DNA from: Pomacea canaliculata
Lineage: Eukaryota; Mollusca; Gastropoda; Architaenioglossa; Ampullariidae
Assembly (NCBI RefSeq): GCF_003073045.1
Contig: NC_037590.1
Coordinates: forward strand, 11,365,042 to 11,429,041
Length of the DNA stretch: 64,000 nt
Reading direction: 5' to 3'
Of the stretch, positions 1,254-60,000 are shown piece by piece. Made by a program: the position numbers and the translations under genes. The notes under the pieces are model-generated. The model made no database searches. It was not told the DNA's origin and saw only the letters and a program-made list of their open reading frames with translations. Every line of letters starts with the position of its first letter. Within the stretch, counting starts at the first letter, position 1.

Positions 1254-1334
1254 TGAAGAAACGGATCGTGTTGTACGGTCTGTTCCCCGACTACGGGTAC
1301 ATGAATGAGGAGGCCAATGGAAGTCATGACTATG
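1254..1334 (+). CDS. NRG: Neuregulin-like, candidate upstream exon
   Basis: The acceptor TACTTTGCAG is followed by 81 nt that stay open in one frame (V-KKRIVLYGLFPDYGYMNEE and onward). The donor is G|GTCAGA. The exon ends in phase 1, which joins exactly to the EGF exon at 4340 (G + TC makes valine). It would encode the linker before the EGF domain, a poorly conserved region, so homology cannot confirm it. The donor is weak. The exon is inferred mainly from phase and acceptor quality. Confidence 0.5.
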
Positions 1335-4300: not shown

Positions 4301-7300
4301 TCTGTTTCATGTCATTTTTGTTCATGTCTTTGCCTCTAGTCTCGGCGCCGCAAAAGATCTACAAAGCCTGCGAGAAGCAGACCTTCTGTTTTAACGGGGG
4401 CACCTGTCGGTACATACCCGAACTACACCAGACATTCTGCGAGTGAGTACAAAGTTTCATTAGCAGCTGGGCATTCATTGTTTGGGTTAAGAAATCCAAA
4501 AACTAGTACCCACTTCACTACTAGAAATTAAAGGAAAAAATATATTAAATGATCAAATATACTCTGAACATATTTTGTGAAATGTTAGATGTTTGAATTG
4601 ATGGCGATCTTCACGAATAACAGTGTGAAAATATGGCGACTGGATCTTACGTTTGGAACACACAATACACTCCACCACAAGACGAACTTTATACCCGTTT
4701 GCTGTCCATTTAAACTTGTCTACCATGGCCTTGAGTGCTTCGACATTGTAACATTCTCCTTTAAAACTTGCACTGTAGTCCTACAAAAAAAAAAAAGCTA
4801 CTACCCTAACCTTTTGTCAGAAATATGGTTTAAGCAATGTTTGTAGCCTATGGTGTGTGAATAGGGTGTCCAGTATACAAAGCATGTGATGTCTTCAAAA
4901 TAATAGACAAATTAGTTACGAAATCGTCGAGAAGGTTGTTTAACACAGTACAGTATAGTGTGTGAAGGAAGAGGACTCGCGAAGTCCCAGTATGCTAAAC
5001 ACTCTGTCTCTACCCTTTGTGAATAAATGGTTTCATCAATGATTGCAAAAGGCTTTGTGTTATGACCTTTTAAGTGATGTTAACCTCTGCCTATCATAGT
5101 AAAGAGTAATTCTCGCTGATGAAACGCTTGTGAAATTTAAGACAAGGTGGTCTTTGTGAACAACAGATGCCCGGAGTCTTACGAAGGTAAACGGTGTGAG
5201 AAAGAAGTCGCACACCCCTCCATCCTCAAAGGTGAAGGAGCTATGCGGTTCTACCATATGTTATCAACAGGTGGACAAATGTTGTCGATTGCTTTGGCAT
5301 GGCATGACTCGCATAATGAGCAGAAAGTATTCAAACGTTCAGAACTAGCCAGCGTGTGTAGTTCCCCTTTAATAACTTTTGGCTGCTGCTACTTGTGTTT
5401 GAGCATTGGCATGCCCGGTTGCTGAAACTAAATGAGACATGTTTTTAAAATTTTCTAAATAATTTTCCACATTTAGAATTTTGGCTTACCCAGTCTTGTA
5501 AAAAGCTCCAGACGTTGGCTTGCATCATTTCTTTGTCCTAACGACGGTAAACGAACATCAGTTGACCAGTCGACCAACAATATTCAGTGAAGATTAACTC
5601 TTCATGAGGTAGTCTTCAACCTGCCTGGATGGCGGTATTCCAGACGAGTCCGTTTATTCGTTTATTTATTTATTTTTTTTACCCCAAGATTGTATAAAGA
5701 AACATAAATAACGGGTGCATGTCCATTTTGTTTGCTTCTAAGGCTGAAGAAAAGCCGTGACGGGTGTTCACCCCATTGCTGTACAAAGTGAAGCGATTTT
5801 TGCATGCAGAGCTGTGTAAATACTTGTTTGTGCATGCCACTTAAATAACAAAAGTAACAAAAATTTGTGGACAATTAATTCAACTGACAAATATGACAAG
5901 AAAGTCCTGTCTGTGGGTGATGGCATGTCCAGTCCTGTCGTCTGTTCCACAAGACAGAGACTAGCGGGGCGGGGTGGACTGTAGGGCAGTAACAGGGAGG
6001 ACAAGTGATGGTAAAATCTGAAGATCGAGGAATGCCATGAAAAGCATCAGCTGCATTTGAAACCGTTTTGAATTTGCGGAGATTTCCCTTCTGTTTTGTG
6101 TGGTTTTGTGTGCGTTTGCTCTAACCTCATTACCAAAGATCTTGTATCTGCTTTTGGCAGCTCTGACCATGGCACGCTGGTCCAGGGCAGAATGTCAAGG
6201 CCGAACCCTTAGTTTCGATATCTAAAAATTATCCTCGCTAGTATAGTGGATAAATAAAAATTAAAATAAAACAGCATATGCTGTTGGGAAGACTTGAATT
6301 TTATAAATACTGTTAGGAAATGAAATACAATTTAAAAAAAAAAACTATTAATGTAAAGCATGCTGAGGATCATTTGATGTCCAGTTGAGAATCTCAGTGA
6401 ACTTGCATGTTTGTATTAGTGTGGACTGAAGCCTAACACGAGATAGCGAGTGGTTATGCCAATACTGACCAGTTTCAGTGTAAACTAATAAACAGTTTGA
6501 TGTCTCAGTGCAAGTCTATGCTAACATTACAGTGTACATAATATGTAAATAGCTCAGTATCATCTGAGAGTCTTTGAAACGAAAACAATCTTTCGCTGAA
6601 GGAATTAGTCCGACAGTTGTTTTGTAAAAATTGTTTGACAAACGCTTTAGGCGTGAATAGTAGCTAAGTGTTAGTTGGTTTATTTGTCAGACAGCAGGAA
6701 GGCAGCGGTGCAGTGTAATGTTTTATTGGTTTATTTTAGTATTTGTAAATGAGCTGTCAGTCTGTCTGCCTGCCTGCTGCTGCCTGCCATGTTGTCAGCT
6801 CTTGCAGTTTACCTGTCTCCATATGCTGACGCAGCGTTTTTTCGACATTATTTAGGATTGTCAGCATCTCTCTCTCGCCAGAAAGTAGCATTCCTCTGTG
6901 ACAGGGAGTCGGGTGCCTGGCATTGGATTTATTCTTTTTACATATATTTCTGCTAGCATTTTTTATTTGTTTTCTTTTGTTTTCCATACTCAGTATTCTT
7001 CACCTGTATTATCATCTGTCACAAACCGCCATTTACATTCGTCATTCAGTTTGTTCTAAGAACGATTTTTTTTTTTCGTTTCTTCATTATCATCCTTCCA
7101 ACTATTTACTGATGAACATCCTCTCCATAGGTCAGATTTGTTTCTGCAGAAGATCGCATCGTCTTGACCCTTGCCACCTCCGTAAATTGACCTTAACCTC
7201 TGTTCATCCTGACCTTTCACCTGTGCTTATTCTGCTTTGCTACTGTCACTCCCCTAGGTGCCCGGCAGAGTGGGCGGGCCAGCGTTGCGAGCTCCTAGAC

Positions 7301-10300
7301 AACCTCAGCGTTCAGGACAAGTATAGCCGTATGTATCTCGTCGGTCGCCAGCCTCCTCACTGCTCCGTTCACAGGACACGATTGGCTATGAACAAATACT
7401 AAGTTTTTTTATAGTTATTGAAAGAACATAGACCTGGAGATGTTGTTGTTGTTGGCAGTGTGTAATAATAATAAAAAAGAAGCTGCTGATTCTTCGTAAC
7501 CTACATTCAGTTTCAGACTCTTGTAGTTGCTGAGGGATGGTGGATAATATAGGGCAGGGCTGGAATTTCTGTTTAAATGTGATCAAGAAGCAAGGAGGAC
7601 TAGAGCGGAAGTAGACTATCACTATGAGAGTCCAAGCGTGTCTTGTGAACCTGAGCATCGGTCAGCTGGCTTAGATGTGCATGCTGGTTTTTGAAATATT
7701 AAAGATGTTTGCATGTACCTTGTGACAATTTTTTTGAGACCAGTACTTTCGGTTGCATAACTGGCATTCTCATTCTGCTTATTTCAGGCTCGTGTAAGTG
7801 TAATAAATGCCATTTTTTTTACTGGGCCCTCTTTTGTTTCAACACCGGCTGTTAATATCGGCAACAAATGTTTAAATTCGGTCGACAAAGTTGTAAAAAT
7901 TGTTGTTTCCGGAATTGTCGCCTGGGAAAGTCAGCCTGAAATTTTAAATCGCGGCTGTTGAAAATGTGAATTATACTGTTTCACTTTAGGTTTTCCCCAC
8001 AACTTCACTTATTTTACGAAGCAGGTGGCCATTTTTAAAGACCCATTGGGCTGAGTTCATTACCCAGGGCTGAGTTCATTACCCAGGGCTGAGTTCATTA
8101 CCCAGGGCTATTTCCTTAAATCAGAGCCAAAAATATGAACAACTCTTCTGTGGACATGACAAGGCTTCAATCATCGACATCCTCACCTACCAGCTAGCAA
8201 CCGTCGACATCCTCACCTGTTTGCCATCAACCGTGACCAGAACACGTATTCGTCACGTTATGTGACGTCACGGCATATTCGTGTCGATGTTTGAAGCCTT
8301 GGGAATAACTGTTATGAAATAAACTAACTTGTAAAAATTTTACCCCTCTGGGTCTTTAAAAATAAAATCTTAATGGTTGCTTTTGAGCATCCGAGATTTG
8401 CATCGCGCTTTGTACAGTTTTACTTCTGTCATTGTGTCCTGTTACCACCCCATCATGGTCATTGTCGTACTGATCATTATTACCCTAAATATTGCCATTA
8501 TAGTCATTATCATTACCGTTATTATCATTACTGTTCACCTGTTGCCTTATAACTTGGATGGTCGTTTGCGGGAATGGTATTATTTCATACTTGTATGCCT
8601 TCAGTTCGCTCCCCTGCCTGTTTAACATTTTTTCTAGAGTTCCTTTTTCATTTTCTCATCTCTTCCATTATATTTTAATGTTTATACTCATTTTTCATTT
8701 TTTTGCTTCTAATTATTTATGATCTTAAATCTGCTTAGCTGCTTGCTTAGTGAAGTTCCAGGTGATGCATACAAATGTACAATGTTTTTACGATCACCAA
8801 ACTTGTTTCCGCTTTGATGCTTCGGAAGCTGCCTTTTGTGTTTGTTCTTGTGTTTTTGTGTATTTTTTTTTTTAATCTTCCTTGTGTGTAGAGTGTAGAG
8901 GTGAACCATTTTAAATGCTCTTCCTCTGCCTGGTCTGAATTCTGGCGAATATGGTGGCGCGTACTGGTCTTTCTTATAAACTGAAACTGATTTTCACTTG
9001 GTGAACACGCCAGGACATGAAGCTGATACTAAAAGTCTGACAGATGATAATAAAGAGATCATCGAGCGCCTGCAAACCTCGCTTACTCAGGCCCAGACAG
9101 AAAGAGTGGCAAAGCTTTGAGAGGACTTCTGTGATGGTTCCTGTTGTAATGTTGCCATGGAGCCTCACGAGGTCTCTCTCTCTCTGCATGCTGATGGTTG
9201 TCATCTCTATCACTGTCCTGCTTTCAATTATTTACTTGGTTTATTTACTTATTTATTTTTCTGATTGCCGTGCTGCTGCCATCATTGCCTGTTCGCTTGC
9301 ATGTTTCGTGATGCTTGTTTGATGGTTTATTGGCTTAACTGATATGCATTACTGTAACTACATTGAATAGTTCTTAAGTGAATCTTACAAAATTCGACTT
9401 AGTTTGAGAGAGGAGGGGCTATAAATAGCTTTGAAGGAGAGAGTGAGTGATTATAAATTTATTTCCTAGCTTATTTATTTTTTCAATTATTATTTAAAGT
9501 CCTAGAGTTGTACTTGAATAACGTCCCTTGGATTCCCCTCTCCTCCCAAATGACAAATGAAGCTCGTGCTGGTAATGGCGGGGGTAAGTGCAGTGGTGTC
9601 AGTTTAAAACGTGAATGTTGGAGGATATAACACGAATTTCCCATTATCGGCGACACACTGTAAGTTTCCAGATGTCGGTGCCTGGAATTTTAATTTCCCA
9701 TGATGTAGTTGACCTACCATGAAGTACTTCAACAGTAAATGGCCTGGTCCAAAAAAAAAAAAAAAAAAAAAATCAGGGCAATCTGGAGAGATGGCGACCC
9801 TGCTCTAAAATGATTTCTCTGGGATTAAATAATATAACGGCTACCTTACCTTGAAATAGTTCCAGAGTTACAGCTTATCTAACCACCAAGACATTATCAG
9901 GTGCACATACCACCGCTCCTCTAATTCTGCGCAGCTTTTTTTATGTAATTATTTGTTGTTGTTGTTATTATTGTGTGGATGTGTGGTAGGTTTAGCTAAT
10001 GGCATCTTTAAGTAAAGGGATTCTTCTTTTAGAGCTAACGCATGGGCAGGACTTTGTTCACCTGTAGCTGGAAATGTTTGCAGAAGTCTAGATTTCTAGA
10101 GTTTCTGTGAGTTAAGCAGGGTCACGGGCACGTCACGTGCACGCCGTCCAGACCAGCCAACGCGTGCGCACGTGCCTTGTGTGGTCGACCACGTGACCAG
10201 CCGCATGCCTTGTGTTTTTCAGGTCAATCCACTCTTTTGTATGAGCGCACGTTGATCATCTTTGGGATTGTTATCGCTGTCTTGGTGTTCCTCGTCATTT

Positions 10301-13300
10301 GCATTGCTTCCTACTTCCTGGCAAAGTAAGTGCATCGTGCAGCACCCCACTCCAGCCCCACCCCTCTCTGACCTGTCTCTCCCCTCCCCCGCCTCCCAGC
10401 TCCCATGACAACAGACAATACGACTTGACTAAAAAAAAAAATATCCCCCTTTGAGAGATTACAGTTCTGCTGAGGTACGATCGGCGTTGGGCTCAAATTC
10501 TAGAAGGTTCGTCGAGCCGAACGAGTCTTGTAGTGTAGAAATTAAGTTCTTTGTCCTGCGCACGTGGACAATTGTGCAAATCTTTGTGAAAAAAGTAGAA
10601 AACTAAATTTGAATTATTTTCCAACTGTATTGTCAACTTTTGTTCATTTCGTGTACAAAAATAAATAAAAACGTACTGTATACCAAACGTAGGATGTACA
10701 AAGGTTTGCAGACAGACGAGGAAATGAATAAAAGTTTCGCCGATCGTTGCGTCAGCTACTGTTAATCTACAAATGCCCCTCGGTCCATTTTCTACAAAGC
10801 TTTAGTTCTACTACCATAGGGTCTGTCTTTAACACTGCCTTGCTGAGTGACGTCTGTGATGAAACTGTGCGTGCGATGTCTCTCAGTTCTCATGCACGTC
10901 ACGTACTGGGGCAGCCGAACAAGTCGCTTAGTCGTGGACAAATAAATAAATAAATTCGATATTGGATGTGTGGAGGGCTTGTCAGCACTGTCGCGTGCTG
11001 CCAGGCTGAGATTTTGAGAAGACGGCCATTTTGTTGGTCAGTAGATATCACACACAACAATGGTCAGTCAGGAGGTCCGATGCGAATGTTCGGCTGCCTG
11101 TTCGTGCCTGTATGCATGTCTGTCAGATAAGATAACTGAACTCGTGTACGTGCTGGTGTTGACGTCACTAACGCACGTGTCTCACTGTGACGCACATGCT
11201 TGTTACACTATTTCAAAATGGCGAACACGCCATGTTTCCACACACCGAACAGCATGGGAGTGGAGTACCAGACGACATTTTGTGAACAGTCAACTTTCCT
11301 ACCCACTTTTATCTAGAAACATCTTAATTTTCATCAACATTTGCAGAGCAGTGACTCTGCCCCCAGTGTTAGCCTAAACGATGATATGATGTAGTTTAGC
11401 AGCATCCCCCCCCAGGAGACAACAATCAGTACTTAAAGCCACATTCTCTACAATAAAGAAATTGAAGGTTCATTGTCACGGAGCTAAGCTCTTGTAGGTT
11501 TAGTGAGCTCACTTCCTGCACAGAAAAGAAGGGTTAAAACAGCCAGAAATATCCCTCACCAGGTTCCCCTTAAAAAAATTCCGTTGGTTAAACAGAAATC
11601 GCCCCCAACTCAGAAGCGGGTTGTGTCCCGATTCTTTAGTAGTTTGAACCCTGCCCGTTAGTGGAATGTCGGTACGAACTCTGCTTGTGGCATGATATAC
11701 ATCTGTACTCTCACCATCAGACTCCTGCATCTGCATGACCATTAACAGAATGAAGTCGGCTAGTTCTGTACAACATTAACATGGCTGCTCACTCCTGGGC
11801 TGAAACGACAGTCTTGACCTGAGGTCAAAGTTTAAAGTGCACGTGCACCTCTTTTACGTGCGATGTGTGTCTTGTGACGGACGTCACTGTCAAAGTGCTG
11901 TGCATGTGCTGCACGTGTGTGTGTGTGTGTGACTGCACGCGACTCACGTCACCCACGTGCTGCGTTCAATCAACTCTACAGACAGGTTGGAGCTCACCGA
12001 AGGCGTGTGAAGAGTTTTCTCCGTTATCATGTTGGTGCTGTTGTTGCTGTGCTTTTCCTGCACGTGCACGTGTGTTGCAGTCGCCGTCGGAAGAGGTCAG
12101 AGGCGAACAAGAGGAAGATGAAACGAGACGGGGACCCAGAGAGTGACCGACTTTTACCAGACAAGGCCGAAGCAAGCTCAAAAGGACAGCATGCACCCAA
12201 CTATTCCCCGTCAACTCACCAGGTATGACCTCAGTGCATGCCGGTCCTTTCCCCTTGCTTACAGACATGGGAGAGTAATAAGGACTCACTTGTTACATTT
12301 TATTATACTTATTGCGTGTGGCTGGATGAACTGACAGTGTGTGTTTGTGCGCGCGCCTGCATTCATGTCTCTCATTCGTTGCTAGGCAACCCAGACAGAA
12401 GCAGACGCTCATCTGCCTAACCCACTGACCAAGTTCACCAGCAACGCCAACAGCAACTTCTTGCATCTGGACAGGACCTTCCCTATGGTCAGCAGCGTTG
12501 TTACTGCCCCTGTCGCCGCGCCGCCTATCCTTGCAAACGGTCAGAGGTCAGGTCACCGTACCCCGGACCGTGACCCGCTAGAGCGACGAGAGCCGCGGCA
12601 TCGCCTCAAGGCCGCCCCCGAGGACGACAATGTCACGGAGACCCGGACCCCTGTCGGTGTGACCGCCCCCATCACTACGGGGGGGAACTCCCCTGAGATA
12701 GTAGAACTAACTGCCACGGGGCCTGATCCCACTGACCAGCGAAGGTTTCTGGGCCCCGAACATGAAAAGCAGGGAGGCTGGACACCCGAGACTTTCTCCT
12801 CTCTAATTCCATTTACGGAGATGTCGGAACCGGTGAGGATGGAGGTGCGTCCGACCGCCAACGTGTACGCGCAGATGAAGCCGCTGCCGAAGGCTCCTAA
12901 TGCCCCCAACACCATCCTGCACACTCCCCCGTCCAAAGATGCGCCCAACACGGTCAAGGTCGTGGACGTGTCCTTCCCGGAGACTCCTCCCATGAACGGT
13001 GTGCTGATCGGCGACTCGGACAACGAAGGAGAGAGCGTGACGAGCCCTCAGCTGCCCCTCCTCCACATCAGCGAAGAGGACCTGACCCGCAACGTCCACA
13101 AACCGCAGAAGCCGTTTCCAGGAGGCGGTCTATCGTCTCCCTCGGCTCCACCTACCGTGTCCTTGACCCCGGCGTCGCCCGCTCGCGCCTTGGAGCCCCG
13201 CCCTGAGTCCTTCCCTTCGCAGTTCCCGGTGGGGGTTCGCGCCCCGCCCAACTCCAGCAGCCTGTCCGACGAGGACTCTGGGGGATTCTCCGTGCGGAAC

Positions 13301-13522
13301 CTCAGCGGCAGCGAAGCCACCAGCCCGACCTACTTCTCCTCCGCCGCCACTGCCCGCCCCTATCACTACGCCTTCGACCCGACGGCGGACTCCGATCCCA
13401 GCGAGCTGCTGGACGAGTTCATGCATGTCCCACCCAACACCTACCTGGCTGGGGGTCTTGACGACCGGCGAGAGCTGCGTCTGCGAGACGTCCGTGACAA
13501 CCAGGAGGCCATACCCATCTGA
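1254..13522 (+). CDS. NRG: Neuregulin-like transmembrane EGF growth factor (5' end missing)
   Basis: Neuregulins are membrane-anchored ligands of ErbB receptor tyrosine kinases; the EGF domain binds the receptor. Exons read here are 1254-1334, 4340-4442, either 5167-5231 or 7258-7328, 10223-10325, 12081-12222 and 12386-13522 (stop TGA). All junctions are GT-AG and phase-compatible. The product has one six-cysteine EGF domain with the FCFNGGTC core, a short stalk, one hydrophobic membrane helix (IIFGIVIAVLVFLVICIA), a basic stop-transfer segment (RRRKR) and a tail of about 380 residues. A single EGF domain close to the membrane with a long tail separates neuregulin from Spitz/TGF-alpha types, which have short tails. 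No start codon or signal peptide is in view. The alternative EGF half-exons match the alpha/beta arrangement of vertebrate NRG. Vein-like or other EGF ligands are less likely because of the long tail. Confidence 0.82.
4340..4442 (+). CDS. NRG: Neuregulin-like EGF domain, first half (Cys1-Cys4), constitutive exon
   Basis: The acceptor CCTCTAG and donor GA|GTGAGT bound a 103-nt exon. It encodes C-x5-C-x5-C-x9-C, with the segment CEKQTFCFNGGTCRYIPE close to the neuregulin EGF pattern (KTFCVNGGEC). The exon ends in phase 2, so the next exon must supply one base to finish a glutamate and then Cys5. Both downstream candidates, at 5167 and 7258, do this. Confidence 0.85.
5167..5231 (+). CDS. NRG: Neuregulin-like alternative EGF exon A (Cys5-Cys6)
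   Basis: This 65-nt exon follows AACAG and ends at AAAG|GTGAAG. It supplies Cys5 and Cys6 in CPESYEGKRCE, with the conserved Gly and aromatic residue of the EGF C-loop, then the stalk KEVAHPSILK. It starts and ends in the same phases as the exon at 7258. An earlier GTAAAC inside the exon would cut off Cys6 and is rejected. Since 65 is not a multiple of three, joining this exon to 7258-7328, or skipping both, breaks the frame. Confidence 0.75.
7258..7328 (+). CDS. NRG: Neuregulin-like alternative EGF exon B (Cys5-Cys6)
   Basis: This 71-nt exon follows CCCCTAG and ends at C|GTATGT. It encodes CPAEWAGQRCE and then the stalk LLDNLSVQDKYS. It replaces exon A in frame: both complete a glutamate codon, give Cys5 and Cys6, and hand over in phase 1 to the membrane exon at 10223. 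Residues in the receptor-contacting C-terminal EGF loop differ from exon A, as they do between vertebrate neuregulin alpha and beta. Confidence 0.78.
8041..8108. repeat. 19-bp direct repeat, three copies
   Basis: TGAGTTCATTACCCAGGGC occurs three times head-to-tail with no mismatches. It lies in the neuregulin-like intron between exon B and the membrane exon. Confidence 0.9.
9014..9120 (+). CDS. Possible alternative terminal exon of the neuregulin-like gene
   Basis: After an acceptor-like ACGCCAG, 107 nt are open up to TGA in the phase left by either EGF half-exon. The peptide is hydrophilic and helix-prone (HEADTKSLTDDNKEIIERLQ, then a short tail ending VAKL). If spliced, it would end the protein before the membrane helix and give a soluble ligand. 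The polypyrimidine tract is weak and no homology is recognised. It could equally be a fragment of an unrelated repeat. Confidence 0.25.
10223..10325 (+). CDS. NRG: Neuregulin-like transmembrane exon
   Basis: The acceptor GTTTTTCAG and donor AA|GTAAGT enclose 103 nt. The exon encodes a short juxtamembrane stretch (QSTLLYERT), one helix of about 20 hydrophobic residues (LIIFGIVIAVLVFLVICIAS) and YFLAK. The position after the EGF domain and the LI-x-x-G-I pattern resemble the vertebrate neuregulin membrane segment. An inserted ligand of this type is released by shedding in the short stalk; that is family knowledge and is not visible here. Confidence 0.85.
12081..12222 (+). CDS. NRG: Neuregulin-like basic juxtamembrane exon
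   Basis: The acceptor GTGTTGCAG and donor CACCAG|GTATGA bound 142 nt. The peptide starts NRRRKRSEANKRKMKRDG, a strong positive-inside stop-transfer signal after the membrane helix, and continues as a polar cytosolic stretch. A second acceptor 99 nt upstream (exon start 11982) is also in frame and would add 33 residues including a hydrophobic run. The downstream acceptor is preferred because it has the better tract and places basic residues right after the helix. Confidence 0.75.
12386..13522 (+). CDS. NRG: Neuregulin-like cytoplasmic tail, terminal coding exon
   Basis: After TTGCTAG, 1137 nt are open to TGA. They encode about 378 residues rich in Pro, Ser, Thr and Asp/Glu, with the features of a disordered intracellular tail and no catalytic domain. 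The stretch is markedly GC-rich compared with the AT-rich DNA around it. It ends in an acidic segment (SDPSELLDEFMHVPPNTY) and then EAIPI. Frames on the opposite strand across this exon (for example 12553-13023) are byproducts of its GC-rich third positions. Confidence 0.85.
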   Translation, partial: ATQTEADAHLPNPLTKFTSNANSNFLHLDRTFPMVSSVVTAPVAAPPILANGQRSGHRTPDRDPLERREPRHRLKAAPEDDNVTETRTPVGVTAPITTGGNSPEIVELTATGPDPTDQRRFLGPEHEKQGGWTPETFSSLIPFTEMSEPVRMEVRPTANVYAQMKPLPKAPNAPNTILHTPPSKDAPNTVKVVDVSFPETPPMNGVLIGDSDNEGESVTSPQLPLLHISEEDLTRNVHKPQKPFPGGGLSSPSAPPTVSLTPASPARALEPRPESFPSQFPVGVRAPPNSSSLSDEDSGGFSVRNLSGSEATSPTYFSSAATARPYHYAFDPTADSDPSELLDEFMHVPPNTYLAGGLDDRRELRLRDVRDNQEAIPI

Positions 13523-29300: not shown

Positions 29301-32300
29301 GAATCTCATTCCACTGGTCACTTGTCCAGTATGTTCATATGCTTAGTCTTTAGAGGCCAAAGAATTATGGTTAAATCAGTTCCTTGGACACATTGCCAAG
29401 CCCCTTGTTCACTCAAGTGCTTTTGAGAATTTAGCCTGTAAAACACTGGTTGACATTACCTGTAATTTAGTATTTTTTAACAGTTGTCCAATTCAGATTA
29501 TTATTTCAGGAATGTTATATTTTCTTTCTACTGTAAAAGCAGTCAAATGTTTTTTTAAGGGCAGACCAACTTCTTGTTTTCTCATACACTTTATCCTGTT
29601 TTTTCCACCTTTCCAAAAGAACTGAAGACATTCCACGAAGCACAAAGTATATTTTACAATTAATAATTTTGTGTGACTATACATGTGTGAGAGTGCATGT
29701 GATAAATTACTTATTCGTTGTCAAACAACATATAGCATTAGGCCTTTTTTAAAGAATGCTCTTTTCTTGTATGCTTGTAATGTTTTTCTTAACTATATAA
29801 ACTATGAAGTGTTTGGTCCTGTGCTTGGATTCTGTTTGGTCCTACTGCCATTATTAGTTCCAAATATATAGTATTTTAATTTACATCCCCTTGTAAAATT
29901 ATCATGTCTTCTGAAATGTGCTTTGTAAAGGGTACAAAGGCATGAAATAAAAAATATTGTACAATTTCAGAATAATATGCTGATTTTCTTTTTTTTTTTT
30001 TTTCACCTTTGGCATAAGATGTCACTTCGGAATAATTTTGGTTGATTTTTTAAATTAATTTATTGATTTATTTTCTGATAAAATTATTTATCTACCTATA
30101 CTTATCTTTGTCAGTACAGTTTGAGCTGAAAAACTTGTGCATACACAATGGCTGTGCTGGCAAGAAAGGCAGAAAAGATGGGTTTCTCTTGTCATGCAGA
30201 TATTTACCATCATATTGGAAGATCTGTAATGACTGTTAATGAAAATTTTCTGCTTTGCAGAACCTCCATCACAGCGATCTTCACGGGGTCCATCACCCGT
30301 TAATTTGACTTCAAGCATTGATGCTTTGGAAGGACAATGGACACCAGGCCATGGTACAGAATTGTAGAGAACTCATAGATCTTTTGAGATTTCTTTTTTT
30401 ACAAAAATTCCATGTTTTAACATACATTCAATTAAATGTGATAGACTGCCTGGCCTGACACTGTGGCATTAAAAATTGATGCTGGTTTCTTGAATCCATA
30501 CCAATCCAGACTTGATTACTGCAATTCCTTGCTTGCTGACTGCCCTGAATATCTTCTTCACAAACACCAGAAAGTACCGAACTCTGCTGCAGGTCTGGTG
30601 CTTAGAGCTAGGAAACAGGACCACGCCACCCTTCTCCTTCGTTTTCTACACTGAGTTCCCATCCATTCTCGCATCCAGTACAAACTGTCCCTGCTGTGTT
30701 TTAATTTCTTTGCTGGCACCTGCCCTGATTATTTCTCTGATCTGTTTTTCTTTTACATCCCAGCTAGACAACTCCGCTCCCGTCTAATGATCATCTCCTT
30801 ACTCTTCCTGTCACCAAAATAACAACATATGGCCAAATGATTTTTAATTATTGTGCAGCGAAACAATGGAACTCTCTCCCTTTCCATATCAGCCACCTAC
30901 CCACTATTGAATCATTTAAAACATGGACTGAAAACGCACCTCTTCAGTAAACATTACTCTAACACCCTTTCCCATAATGATAGTCCTTTTTCACACCCTT
31001 CCTTTTGCAGTATCATGTTACTCTCATCTCTTGTTCTTGTTATTTGGTTCCTCTTTGTGTTTTCTATATTTGATTTTATTTTGTTTAGTATGGTTGTTTA
31101 TTCTTTTATAGTTCATATGTTATTTGTTTTCCTGTTCCTCGTATGCTGTCCATGTTTCGTTCTTGTTCTTAAGCTCTAAAAGTCTGCTCTTTAGGAGTGT
31201 CAGTATACGCTTTACAAATTTTACATTTATTATTATTATTACCCTGTTCTTTTATTCTTGGACTTTCATTTTCAAAATTTGAAAGTATTGTGGAAGGTGG
31301 AACCATTTCTCTTTTTTTTTTCCATCATTTGTAGGAGTATCACCGGTACCACCACCCATGAAAGGTACAGGCATTCCTCATCCAGGATCATCAGCCCCTT
31401 TTGTTACCAGCACGTCCCCATCTGGACCACCACATAGCCACAGGATTCCTCCACCTGCTCTCTCAAGTTTGACTCAGCCAGGTATGGTAATGCCCCCTAT
31501 CTCAAGGCCTGGCATGCCAGGACCTCCACCTGTAGCTGGGCCTCCTCCGTCTTCTGTACCTGGTATGCTTCCACCTTCACAATTAAGGATGGGAAGTGGT
31601 CCACCTTTATCGAGTATGGGAAGTGGTCTTCCTCCACCACCAAATATAGGAAATGGTCCACCACCACCACCAAGTATGGGAAGTGGTCCACCACCACCAC
31701 CACCAAGTATGGGAAGTGGTCCACCACCACCAACTATGGGAAGTGGTCCACCTCCACCACCAAGTATGGGAAGTGGTCCACCTCCACCACCAAGTATGGG
31801 AAGTGGTCCACCACCACCAACTATGGGAAGTGGTCCACCTCCACCACCAAGTATGGGAAGTGGTCCACCTCCACTGCCAACAATGAGCCAGCAGCAGCAA
31901 CAACAGACAGGGTATCCATCAATGGTGCGTTGTAATTTATGGTTACATGATTCCAAATCCTAGAAAGTCATTTGTGTCTCAGTATTTAACATATTCAAAT
32001 ATAAATATATGTGGTCCTTTCAGCAACTAAACAACATGGTTCTATGTGTATACAGGTAGTCCTCGACTTACGACATTGATCCGTTCTTACGCGGCATCGT
32101 AAACCGAATTTCGACATAAGTCGGATCATACGTTCATACAGTATTGTATCATAATAACAGTACAGTACTGCAAACACTTAGCCTATCCAAACACCTATCC
32201 TAACACAGTACCCTACATAATTATCAATAAACATAAGTACAGTAAAATATGACTATGACTTCCGCGCATGTGGAATGAGGCGCACGTACAGTTCGACTTA

Positions 32301-51952: not shown

Positions 51953-54900
51953 CTGCAACAAAACCAGAATATTTCACAGATGTCTGTGTATAATAAATAC
52001 ATGTATCTGCATCAATCTTGTTTCTGCTAAATGAACTAGTACAAAATCTGTTGAACAAACTAAAGAGAATGTCCCAGTTTTTTCATGATTAGCTTTTTAG
52101 CATTAATACAATGAAGATGAGACTCAAGTGTTATGCCCATTTCTAAAGAATATTATGAAAACACATAAAAGCATACAATACAATGTTTGCCCTTCCTAAA
52201 CACATACTACTGGTCTTTACAAGCAAACCTATTGCTTCGTCAATGACTCTGTCATGTATATGTGTGTGCAAACCAAACAAATTATAGTTCTCTACAATTC
52301 TGTCCGTATTTTTTTTTAAGCCTTATATTTCTTTTTAATTGAGAATTCTTTTTGTCTGTTACTTCTATGTAAATAGATATTGGGTGCATGGTATGCTCTG
52401 CTTCTAATGAGTATACCCCATTTTTCTCTTTGATCTTCTTTTCCTCTCTCTCACCATCCCCTTGATCAGACCATAAATGTCTGTAGCGGAAGAAAGGATT
52501 GTTGCACAAGACATTTATTTCAGGTTTGTAAAAGTGCATGCAAGTTTTATCAAGTACTGTGAGCCCAAATTTTGCATGGAAAATAGTGCTATTTAAGTTC
52601 TTTTATTATTGTAAGGTGTTCCCCGTTTTCTAAACTGGTAGTCAAATCCTCTCTGGCTGTCTATTAACAGCAGCAGTCAATTTGGTTATTTTGGTAAATA
52701 GCTAAATTGATTGGCCCTATGTGATAGAGTATGGAAGTCTGGTTTGCAAATCTTAAGCTCATAAAATTTTTTGAGATTATTTTTGTTTGTGAAGTAAATC
52801 ATTAATGAGACTTGGCTGAAGGAGGCTGACAGTGATAATGACATACATATCAGCGGGTTTGGCGCCCTATAACACCAACAAATCCACCGGCAGAGGCGTG
52901 TGTTTGTACATAAACAAGCGGTACTGCAACACCATTGTGGTCAGAAAATGATTGTGCACCACCAATCTTGAACTGCTGTCCATTTCCCTCCATCCTGACT
53001 ACCTCCCTAGGGAATTCCCTCAGTTGTTTTATACATTTGTGTACATATATATATACACACGAGCAAACGCAGTCCACTGTGATACACAAATTAGATGCCA
53101 TTTGCCCGGACACTCCCAAGTTTATCCTTGCGGATTTTATCGCTGCTGGCTTACTGGGATACTTGAAAGCTATCTATCTAATCCTCTTCGTGCATCAGAT
53201 TGCACATAAAGCCTCAACCAGAGTCTGCCACTGATGTCAATCAGGTGAAACCCGCTTAGGTGACCCATGTCCAGCCCTTTCCTTTCATCTCCCTTTCCAC
53301 TTGTTCTTCTCCAAGTTTCCTTTCGCCCGTCAGGCTTGAATCTCCATCTCCACATTCTCCAGTGATTGACATTTTGGACCCAAGATAGGTGAAACTGTCA
53401 ACTTCCTCAATCTCTTCTTCATTTAGTTGGATGCTGTTGGAGTCTGGTGTTCACTCATACTTTTCGTTTTCTTTGCGCTGACCTTCAAGCCAAGGCTTCC
53501 AGCTGTTTCTGAGAAAGCATTGGTTTTTTCCTGCATGTCTTGGTGGCGGTGTGACAAAAGGGCAATGTTATCAGCAAAGTCCAAGTCTTCCAGCGTTGTT
53601 GTTGCTGTCATAGTCATGGTCCATCTGATCCCTCTCTTCTCACTGTCGGTGGAAGTCTTCATGATCTAGTCCATGGTCAGTCAGGATGAAGAGGAACGGC
53701 GACAGAATGCAGCCCTGCTTCACCCCGGTACTGACGCTGAAGGGGTCTGTGAGCTCCGTGTCACAGACAACCTGGATTTGAAATCGCTGTACAGCATTGC
53801 AATGACCTGAACAAGTTTTGCAGGGACTTCGTAATGCCTCAGGATCTTCCATAAGGACTCTCAGTGAATGCTGTCAAAAGCCTTCTCCAGGTCGATGAAA
53901 TTGATGTACAGCGGTGTGTTCCACTCGTTGCTCTGCACCAGAATCTGTTGCAGAATGAAGATGTGTTCAGAGCAGGATTGCCCAGGGCGAAATCCTGCTT
54001 GCTGTGGTCGGAGGTCTTTCTCAAGGGTTGCCGTCAGTCTTGCTGAAGACCTTGCTGGTGAGGAAAAAAAGTGTTATGCCCCTCCAATTATTGCAGTCTC
54101 CAAGATCTCCTTTTTGGGTAACTTGATGATGAGCCCTGTTTTCCATGGATCAGGGAGCTGTCCTGATTCCCAAACTTGCGTGAAGATTTCAGTCAGCATG
54201 GGAGCTGTCACATTCACATCTACTTAAAAGCTGAGCAATATGTATTCTGCTCCATCACACAGGAATTCTATTATTGACCCTTGTTGCAGCACTATCCCCG
54301 GCGCTTACCATCCCTTGGAGCATTGTATCACATATTCTCCTGGCACAGGTGTATAAGATGGCGTGTCAGCGATCGGGTGTGGGATGCAATGACCTCATTT
54401 TGTACACTTGTGTGATGAACACTTCCTTGTCTTGAATGTCTCAAAGACATGATCTTCGACTTTATGGTATAAACCTTAGAGCTAAAAACATATCAACTGA
54501 TAAAACTGCTCTTTCTAATGCCAAAGAATTTGAGACATCACTGTTTTTTCATGCCTATACTTCATGGTGGGAGGATCCATCACCCTGTGATAAGTATGCT
54601 AAGCTGTGAAATGCTGGTTTGAGACTTACATAAGGCAGCGACTGGAAAACTCACTCATTACTTAAATGATATTGATTTACTGGAGAACTGGAAGGTAAAA
54701 AAAGACTGCTGCTGCACTCTGCCTTGACTATGCCATGTCACAGACAAAGTGACTTAAGGTATGGAACACTTCAACATGTTTTTTGCCCACCAGGCTCCCA
54801 GACCTTTACTATCCATTTTTTTCTTCTCTATTTCTTTAACTTCATATGAAAAGCCTCTTGTGAACATCAACTGTATATTTTTAATGCAAGCTGGCATGCC

Positions 54901-57004: not shown

Positions 57005-60000
57005 GTTAGTTAATTATAGCAGTATAATTGGGAGCATGATTTTAATACTTTTGTGGAATATTTGTTCCTTACCATTTTTAATTACTGTTAGAACATAAAT
57101 TCAGTGGCAAAAAAAAAATCCAAAAGAGGTATTCAGATTGTGTGGTGGTGTGCAAACAGAAAATACCAATGTAGATAATATAAAAGCTTCATTATACCTC
57201 CGGTCAGATATATTAAGCAAACGGTATAGTACCTGGAACAATTCATGGTGTACAGAAGTGAATGGAACTTTTTCTGTGAATATACTTATCATTGAACAGG
57301 CCTTGGTCACAAATCAGGAAAGTTGTTATTCCTGGGTTTAGACAATGCAGGCAAGACTACTCTGCTTAGTGTCCTTAAAGAAGGGCATATAATTCAGCCA
57401 GTGCCAACGCTGCATCCAAGTAAGTTACTGCCAGCAGAAATCCTGGATGGCATGCTGCATGGACCAATTTGCAGTGCTGCCAACGCAGTTTATAAACCAT
57501 GTATGGAGCATGCTGGAACGCCTTCACATTAAGATGTTTCTGATGTGGACAGAAGATTTAGTGTAGCACTACTTGAAAGTGTCAGTCATGGGATATCACA
57601 GGAATTAAGTAAAATATGCAAAACTCTGCTACACCTAAAATTTAAAGTACTTAATTTTAGTTGCTTTTATTTACAAAAATGGAAACTTATAATTTAATTA
57701 TCAAATTATTTAACTACTTCATCAGATTGGTTCTATTAAACAATTTTTCAAACTTTTGATCACCTAGCGGTAGACATGATCAGCAGAAAGAAAACAAGTT
57801 AGAAAGACAATTAACTTTCGATTGTTTTGATTGTTTGTAGTTTAGTAGGATTTTATTTGTGTTTATAGAACTTCGCCACATCATGAAATATAATGTGTGT
57901 GGGTGAGTATTTTGTTGGTGTAAACTCTTACATCCATTATCTTGATACAGGGATTAATAATTGCCGTTACTAAATCTGAAATGCAGTAACAAGTCAGTGA
58001 TATATATATAACGCATTAGGCAAGACTTCTTGAGGCAAAACATAAAATATCCATCTGCGTGACTACATTCTGTCTTTCTCTCTCTCTCTCTGTGTTCCAT
58101 AGGCTTATACAAAAAGTCTGGTAAGCTAGTATTCCTGGGTCTAGACAACGCAGGCAAGACCACGCTTCTTCACATGCTTAAAGATGACAGAATGGCTCAG
58201 CATGTGCCAACCCTGTATCCAAGTAAGACTGACATCCTATGCATTTGTTTCATTTATACTTGTAGAAACTGCTATTTGCATTTAGATTTATATAAAGCAT
58301 TTTTCCTGCTCAGTAATGCATTGCTGTTGGCATTTGCAAATTTGCACTAACACTAGTTATTTTACTGCTAAATAAAGTGCAGGATGGCTATATAATAACT
58401 ACTAATGGGGGAATGTGAAGTGTTAGATGTGATTATGCTGCATACTTCCCCGTGTAGTAAAGTAATTTTATTTGTCTGTTAGTCTTTGTGTAACGGTAGC
58501 ATTGAAGTGGCAAACTGTTTACAGTTCAGAATTTATCCCTTGTATCTTATCACATACTCACCCTTTAAATTAAAGTACTTTGGTTGTACACATTTAAGTG
58601 AACTGTAAAGTGAGATGGATTGCTTTTTCCTATTCTGTTGCTGTTGAAGTGGCATATGATTGCATGGTTTTCTGCTTTATGCTGTAATTAGCAGAAATGC
58701 ATTTTTTTTTCTCCTGATGTGGCCCAACCTAGCAAGACTTCTCCATCATGTGTTACAAAAGTTAAATTTTTTTTTAATATGCAGTAAAATATAATTTAAT
58801 GGAACTTGGGATTAAATCATATTTTATTGTGACATTTAAGCATATCTAAAGAATATCCACAGAGGAACTATTTTAAAAAGTTAAATGAAATTTATCTCTA
58901 GTTTCGCTTTTTTAAATCTTATCTAACAACATATATAAACTTTAACATGCTGGAAAAATGTATCTAATATTTATGGCGTTACAAATTTGTATAAATTCTG
59001 GATATAACTTGTTTAATTATTTACACAAAATTTCTTTATCTTTTTTTTAGCCTCTGAAGAATTGAGCATGGGAGGGATGAGGTTTACAACTTTTGATCTT
59101 GGTGGTCATAGGCAAGGTAAGATTTTTGTGTAAGATGGAATGGTAGATTTTCTGTTTTGGGAAAACCTATTAAAGGTGCTATGATTTCACAAGCCCATTT
59201 GTGGAAGGGGCTTATAATATCATGGATAATATTTTTTGAGAAAGACAGAGCCTATCCTCACTTTACTGCCAATGTCTTCATTAAGCATGATTTGAGGGTC
59301 AGAGGACCAAAAACCATACAGATGGTCCCCATCGAACAAATGATCATATGTTATTTCTGCACACTTGAAGTGTTGCATTTTGCTGAGAACTAAATGCTAC
59401 CTTAGCCAGTGATAGAGGGGTGGGGGGATTGGTGTTTTATGCCGTTCCAGCAACTGAGGCTATATTACGGCAAGGCAGCCAACCCTGTAAACAGATGCCA
59501 CGTGCAGAGAAAGAACAGCGTGCCCGAGACGAGAAATGAACTCTGGGCAGCCAACCTTCACTGTATTGGTGACAGGCGCTAACCGTTGCACCACCGGACC
59601 GCTCGCCAGTGATAGGACACACAGCATGAACTACTAAGAAATGAGACAAGCCAACACACTGCCAAGAAACGAGTAGAATCAATATAAAACTGGCAAAAAG
59701 CAAAGCAAATGAGAATCGGCAGACTTCCAAAAAATAAGTAGAATCTATGCATGCTGCCAAGAAATAAGTAGAATCAACACAGAAACAAGATGAGAAGCCT
59801 TCCAAGAAACGAGGAATTGAGGCATGTGGCCCAGCAGCAAACAGAACACACTCTACCAAGAGGCAAATAGAATCAACACACTCTGCCAAGCAACAATAGA
59901 TTCTGGACAGACTGACATCATTTGACTAATTCCCCACAAAAGATAGACAGGGAGACCAGCACAAACATTTATCAGTGGATTTTAAAATAGTGCTAGAAGT

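Follow-up and report, generated by a model that had tools for sequence, protein, structure and literature searches.

The plus strand of a 64-kb stretch of Pomacea canaliculata DNA (64,000 nucleotides of contig NC_037590.1, called the window below) holds the downstream part of a neuregulin-like gene, as read from translation of the window. We propose, with a probability of a little under 0.8, that this gene encodes a neuregulin-type, membrane-anchored EGF ligand and that its pre-mRNA is spliced with either of two exons, A or B, each of which would finish the same EGF domain with its own Cys5–Cys6 loop and stalk. The gene can probably make two ligands by alternative use of these exons, as human neuregulin does. 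We call the protein, a transmembrane EGF ligand with a sequence far from that of vertebrate neuregulin, neuregulin-like; it may be a neuregulin in the strict sense.

Exons A and B and the reading frame

The exons of the gene part inside the window are listed with their lengths in nucleotides (nt) and their encoded peptides.

1254–1334, plus strand: tentative upstream exon, entered and left in phase 1, KKRIVLYGLFPDYGYMNEEANGSHDY; a candidate with an in-phase open frame joining E1, which could be false
4340–4442, plus strand: exon E1, 103 nt, linker and EGF Cys1–Cys4 (SAPQKIYKACEKQTFCFNGGTCRYIPELHQTFC), phase 1 in, phase 2 out
5167–5231, plus strand: alternative exon A, 65 nt, Cys5–Cys6 and stalk, CPESYEGKRCEKEVAHPSILK; weak acceptor, good donor
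7258–7328, plus strand: alternative exon B, 71 nt, Cys5–Cys6 and stalk, CPAEWAGQRCELLDNLSVQDKYS; good acceptor, weaker donor
10223–10325, plus strand: transmembrane exon, 103 nt, phase 1 in, phase 2 out, donor gtaagt, QSTLLYERTLIIFGIVIAVLVFLVICIASYFLA
12081–12222, plus strand: basic cytoplasmic juxtamembrane exon, NRRRKRSEANKRKMKRDGD..., open frame between AG and GT sites, phase 2 in, phase 0 out
12386–13522, plus strand: long last coding exon for the cytoplasmic tail, open frame of 378 residues in a GC-rich stretch, ending ...DNQEAIPI-stop

All three exons E1, A and B lie between an AG and a GT, and E1 ends within the codon preceding Cys5. Translation reproduced to the base the coordinates, lengths, phases and peptides that an earlier, sequence-only reading of this DNA had assigned to the three exons. 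A and B have common entry and exit phases and lengths that are both 2 modulo 3, and they leave in phase 1, which is the phase that the transmembrane exon needs. With A alone or B alone, no early stop interrupts the frame across the transmembrane, basic and tail exons, and the product from E1 to the stop ending at 13522 has 515 residues in the A form and 517 in the B form. When both exons are skipped, the translation ends ...FCESIHSFV-stop, seven residues past Cys4. When both are included, the whole EGF-A domain is made, followed by KGARQSGRASVASS-stop inside exon B. The sequence-only reading had stated that both exons or neither would break the frame and that only one at a time is usable; for the full-length protein this is what the translations give.

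If it escaped decay, the product with both exons would be secreted as a ligand. In human NRG1 there is a class VII isoform in which the alpha and beta exons occur together with the beta exon frame-shifted, and which is short and devoid of the transmembrane and intracellular parts, according to PMC11360300. The frame rule in human NRG1 is thus the same as in the Pomacea pair.

The chance occurrence of such exons was estimated with a strict pattern consisting of an acceptor AG, N-Cys-X5-Gly-X2-Cys and an in-phase GT, which was composed after the exons had been seen, so that the resulting odds serve as a guide. The pattern occurs at two places in the 5.8-kb intron 4443–10222 and nowhere else on either strand of the 64 kb. 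When the intron was simulated 2000 times with a third-order Markov model, the copies had 0.0105 matches on average, with at least one match in 20 copies and at least two in a single copy. Even for a pattern chosen afterwards, E1 and the transmembrane exon dictate the exon phases, and the EGF fold dictates the spacing. This kind of switch is already known from vertebrates, and the exon pair here is very probably real, judged from the genomic letters. A looser pattern matched nine places in the window, namely A, B and seven others; none of the seven lies in the intron, and two of them carry an in-phase GT. A third alternative exon was accordingly rejected, as intron 4443–10222 offers none by either pattern.

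Origin of the exon pair

The solved chains of NRG1 alpha and NRG1 beta show no difference up to and including ...YLCKC, and they part at the residue that follows, right after Cys5. The Pomacea forms share ...FCEC-P and differ from the residue after. The NRG1 chains diverge where A and B take over, as had been claimed from the sequence. As evidence for homology, the position of the boundary is weaker than had been supposed, since the genes of EGF-family ligands commonly have an intron between Cys4 and Cys5. If the intron is so widely shared, the boundary indicates only an EGF-family ligand, and an exon pair could arise there twice; only the duplication of a separate Cys5–Cys6 exon would be specific to neuregulin.

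Judged by the exon boundary and exon layout of the human NRG1 gene, the Pomacea gene resembles vertebrate NRG1 and NRG2 in having a single EGF domain, a common Cys1–Cys4 part and two Cys5–Cys6 exons with their own stalks, followed by the transmembrane segment. Vertebrate beta1 and beta3 carry extra stalk exons. The loop and stalk sequences differ from the vertebrate ones, and A and B do not match alpha and beta one to one. Pairing A and B with alpha and beta over 18 columns, NRG2 pieces included, gave a score difference of 12 and a column-swap p of 0.54. The assignment of A to alpha and B to beta was dropped for want of any such signal. NRG1 beta outscores NRG1 alpha as a match to either exon, which is also seen in the E-values of the structure search described below.

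A and B are identical at 6/18 residues, and the alpha–beta identity is 7/18 for NRG1 and 6/18 for NRG2. As DNA, A and B show no likeness beyond that of shuffled sequences, 207 of 2000 shuffles scoring as high, and their flanks gave no match better than E 0.27. A recent duplication was rejected on these two results. Being as different from each other as alpha is from beta, with DNA likeness at shuffle level, the two exons are unlikely to be a recent pair.

The sequence-only reading had called the design either ancestral or convergent, and, as A and B have no respective counterparts in alpha and beta, each origin keeps a substantial probability. Not far short of an even chance is given to convergence, in which the gene would be a neuregulin orthologue and its exon pair would have arisen apart from the vertebrate alpha/beta pair. 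The missing correspondence and the leaning of both exons toward NRG1 beta agree with it, and if every EGF ligand gene has inherited this intron position, duplications recurring at that place would be favoured. On the other side, 18 compared residues are too few to resolve so old a split, and the identity between A and B is like that between alpha and beta, so that a similar age is possible. We offer more tentatively, at somewhat less than even odds, the proposal that the alpha/beta switch was a trait of the last common bilaterian ancestor that was kept here and in vertebrates, and that joint inclusion of A and B may yield a third product, a secreted EGF-A form that resembles human NRG1 alpha-beta3.

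Splicing between the EGF and transmembrane segments also occurs in C. elegans lin-3, an EGF ligand in which it adds residues after the EGF domain. The Pomacea gene is similar in the place of splicing and differs in that lin-3 is not known to swap the Cys5–Cys6 loop. Among the open-access matches listed, as judged by titles and the beginnings of abstracts, none described alternative EGF exons for a neuregulin of an invertebrate or told when the switch arose; subscription papers and database gene models, which may well show such isoforms, lie outside that search.

Possible kinship of the ligand with neuregulin

The Pfam EGF domain was matched above its cut-off by the A and B isoforms, and in the gene part inside the window one EGF domain is followed by a transmembrane segment. 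A search of solved structures placed NRG1-beta chains first for both isoforms, with E 6.6e-6 for A and 3.9e-6 for B; this comparison of the EGF domain covers solved structures only. The A query of this search and the queries of the Pfam EGF scan end in K where the true exon gives N. The transmembrane and basic region aligned without gaps to human NRG1 with a score of 71, which none of 5000 segment-wise shuffles reached (median 35, best 66), and with its transmembrane part reversed the region scored 54. Against NRG3 it scored 48, with gaps, lower than against NRG1. The end of the tail, DNQEAIPI, is faintly like the NRG1 end ANQDPIAV (14 of 2000 shuffles as high). A neuregulin-like transmembrane EGF ligand, as first suggested from the sequence, is supported.

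Several observations weigh against a neuregulin in the strict sense. The lead of NRG1 is small: 6.6e-6 against 1e-5 for tissue plasminogen activator in the A isoform, and 3.9e-6 against 1.6e-5 for an EGF/TGF-alpha chimera in the B isoform. With other EGF-containing proteins so close behind, the EGF domain alone cannot settle membership. Cys3 and Cys4 are spaced by 10 residues here and by 13 in NRG1, as seen in the alignments to solved chains. For the B isoform, the Pfam neuregulin intracellular domain was not among the six families matched at E up to 10. The tail exon 12386–13522 had no Pfam match, scanned alone or inside that isoform. In the 4.3 kb upstream of E1, none of six plus-strand open reading frames (ORFs) of at least 70 residues matched Pfam, and no immunoglobulin (Ig) domain was seen in them, shorter ORFs not being scanned. 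Pattern scans for relatives in two contig collections, neither meant for animal genomes, returned 3 matches in viral contigs and 36 matches in the other, with none confirmed.

The gene might instead encode an EGF-type ligand of the TGF-alpha or Spitz kind, in which the Cys5–Cys6 exon would have been duplicated independently and the likeness to neuregulin would reflect a gene layout shared by the EGF family. EGF, TGF-alpha, epiregulin and others score only somewhat below NRG1, the neuregulin and Ig domains were not found within the scans above, and the three extra residues of NRG1 between Cys3 and Cys4 are missing. We consider this explanation unlikely: NRG1 comes first for both isoforms, the transmembrane and basic region and the tail end are like NRG1, a separate Cys5–Cys6 exon with a long tail is the neuregulin layout, and NRG2 likewise has a Cys3–Cys4 spacing of 10. 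In its favour, EGF ligands carry little phylogenetic signal according to PMC4914847.

The same source, Barberan et al. 2016, treats neuregulin-type ligands with EGF and transmembrane parts as a bilaterian innovation, and defines the type by an Ig I-set domain together with an EGF domain (PMC4914847). It places one neuregulin-like ligand in Crassostrea gigas, none in Lottia gigantea and one in Schmidtea, and includes Drosophila vein; neither 'splic' nor 'exon' occurs in its main text. The Pomacea protein is like these invertebrate ligands in its EGF plus transmembrane class and unlike them in that no Ig domain was seen in the scanned upstream ORFs. In a 2013 study of six selected proteomes, that of zebrafish alone was judged to include NRG1 (PMC3865767). 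The Pomacea protein differs from vertebrate NRG1 and NRG2 in that its B isoform had no Pfam match to the neuregulin tail and, for NRG1, in the Cys3–Cys4 spacing.

Exon choice, surroundings and meaning of the proposed switch

Splice sites were scored with a general metazoan matrix and ranked as percentiles of all AGs or GTs in the window. Exon A has a donor at the 98th percentile and an acceptor at the 64th; exon B has an acceptor at the 95th and a donor at the 81st. The poor acceptor of A counts against its use. The weak A acceptor together with the weaker B donor also makes a setting that suits regulated choice. That one exon alone is in use, the other being either a copy on its way to being lost or a poison exon by which nonsense-mediated decay adjusts expression, agrees with these site strengths and with the early stop that joint use creates in exon B, yet it is improbable, as both exons keep Cys5, Gly, Arg, Cys6, their phases, the splice dinucleotides and an open frame in spite of DNA diverged to shuffle level, where a dead copy would be expected to show some loss.

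For the gene spliced with A or B, the following course may be envisaged. The cell would pick one exon, and given the weak acceptor of A and the weaker donor of B, splicing factors could tip the choice. Products with neither or both exons would hit an early stop and would mostly be cleared by nonsense-mediated decay. The membrane pro-ligand, with its exon-specific third loop and stalk, would be cut in the stalk, and the freed EGF domain would bind an EGFR/ErbB receptor. EGF-family ligands touch their receptor with the Cys5–Cys6 loop and with the residues that follow Cys6, so the A and B forms should differ in affinity, and perhaps in shedding, by analogy with NRG1 and NRG2 alpha and beta. For NRG1, affinity is higher for the beta kind than for alpha, and NRG2 has one high- and one low-affinity form, according to PMC10898996.

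RNA structure around exon A was tried as a special feature and fell within the ordinary range (z -0.73, with 47 of 200 shuffles folding equally well). UGCAUG, an RBFOX-like motif, occurs at eight plus-strand sites in intron 4443–10222; the motif is frequent across the window and no conclusion was drawn from it. Over both strands of the whole window TGCATG occurs 92 times, where shuffles have a mean of 52 and none of 100 has as many, often within the palindrome TGCATGCA. The intron after exon B contains a short tandem repeat at about 8048–8109 with a unit like GGGCTGAGTTCATTACCCA.

The tentative exon at 1254–1334 has an acceptor at the 98th percentile of window AGs and a donor, GTCAGA, at the 93rd percentile of GTs, and the ORF around it had no Pfam match. 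The acceptor tract of E1 (4309–4347) is open in frame from an ATG at 4309 and begins MSFLFMSLPLVSAPQK..., resembling a short signal peptide. This frame could be an accident of the pyrimidine tract, or a second promoter could use it to begin a form that lacks the Ig domain.

Genes of the COPII coat lie downstream, at about 26576–62250: SEC24, with a stretch near 42.9 kb that matches Sec24B best, and then SAR1, which matches SAR1a best. Proline-rich ORFs at 26.6–33.8 kb, which had no Pfam match, are perhaps the N-terminal part of SEC24. Human SEC24A, SAR1B and NRG2 are presumably all on 5q31, with SEC24 and SAR1 genes as neighbours there too. On those assumed positions, the adjacency of SEC24 and SAR1 offers a lead, and only a lead, to neuregulin orthology by synteny. 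One review places NRG2 at 5q13.2 (PMC10898996), at odds with 5q31.

The P-loop exon of SAR1 is present twice, at 57300–57419 and 58103–58222, both copies being 120 nt long, phase 1–1, with AG and GTAAG sites. The copies are identical at 84 of 120 bases, and their differences by codon position (11/6/19) suggest that both have been kept as coding. They are candidate mutually exclusive exons in a COPII GTPase. Unlike the neuregulin pair, their length is a multiple of three, and the frame would not enforce a choice. A literature search for paired SAR1 exons listed a single paper, on another subject by its title. Elsewhere in the window, an open frame at 31283–31963 has many tandem copies of one 10-residue peptide, and a reverse transcriptase match on the minus strand at 53861–54073 falls just below the Pfam cut-off (27.7 against 29.6 bits) and is probably a retrotransposon remnant.

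An exon pair at the NRG1 junction, in a gene so distant from those of vertebrates, makes the age of the switch testable in public genomes and RNA data. The pair would mean either a very old splice switch or repeated invention at one intron. If true, animals with one or two EGFRs, such as the two molluscs in a table of PMC4914847, would obtain variety of ligands by splicing in place of variety of receptors.

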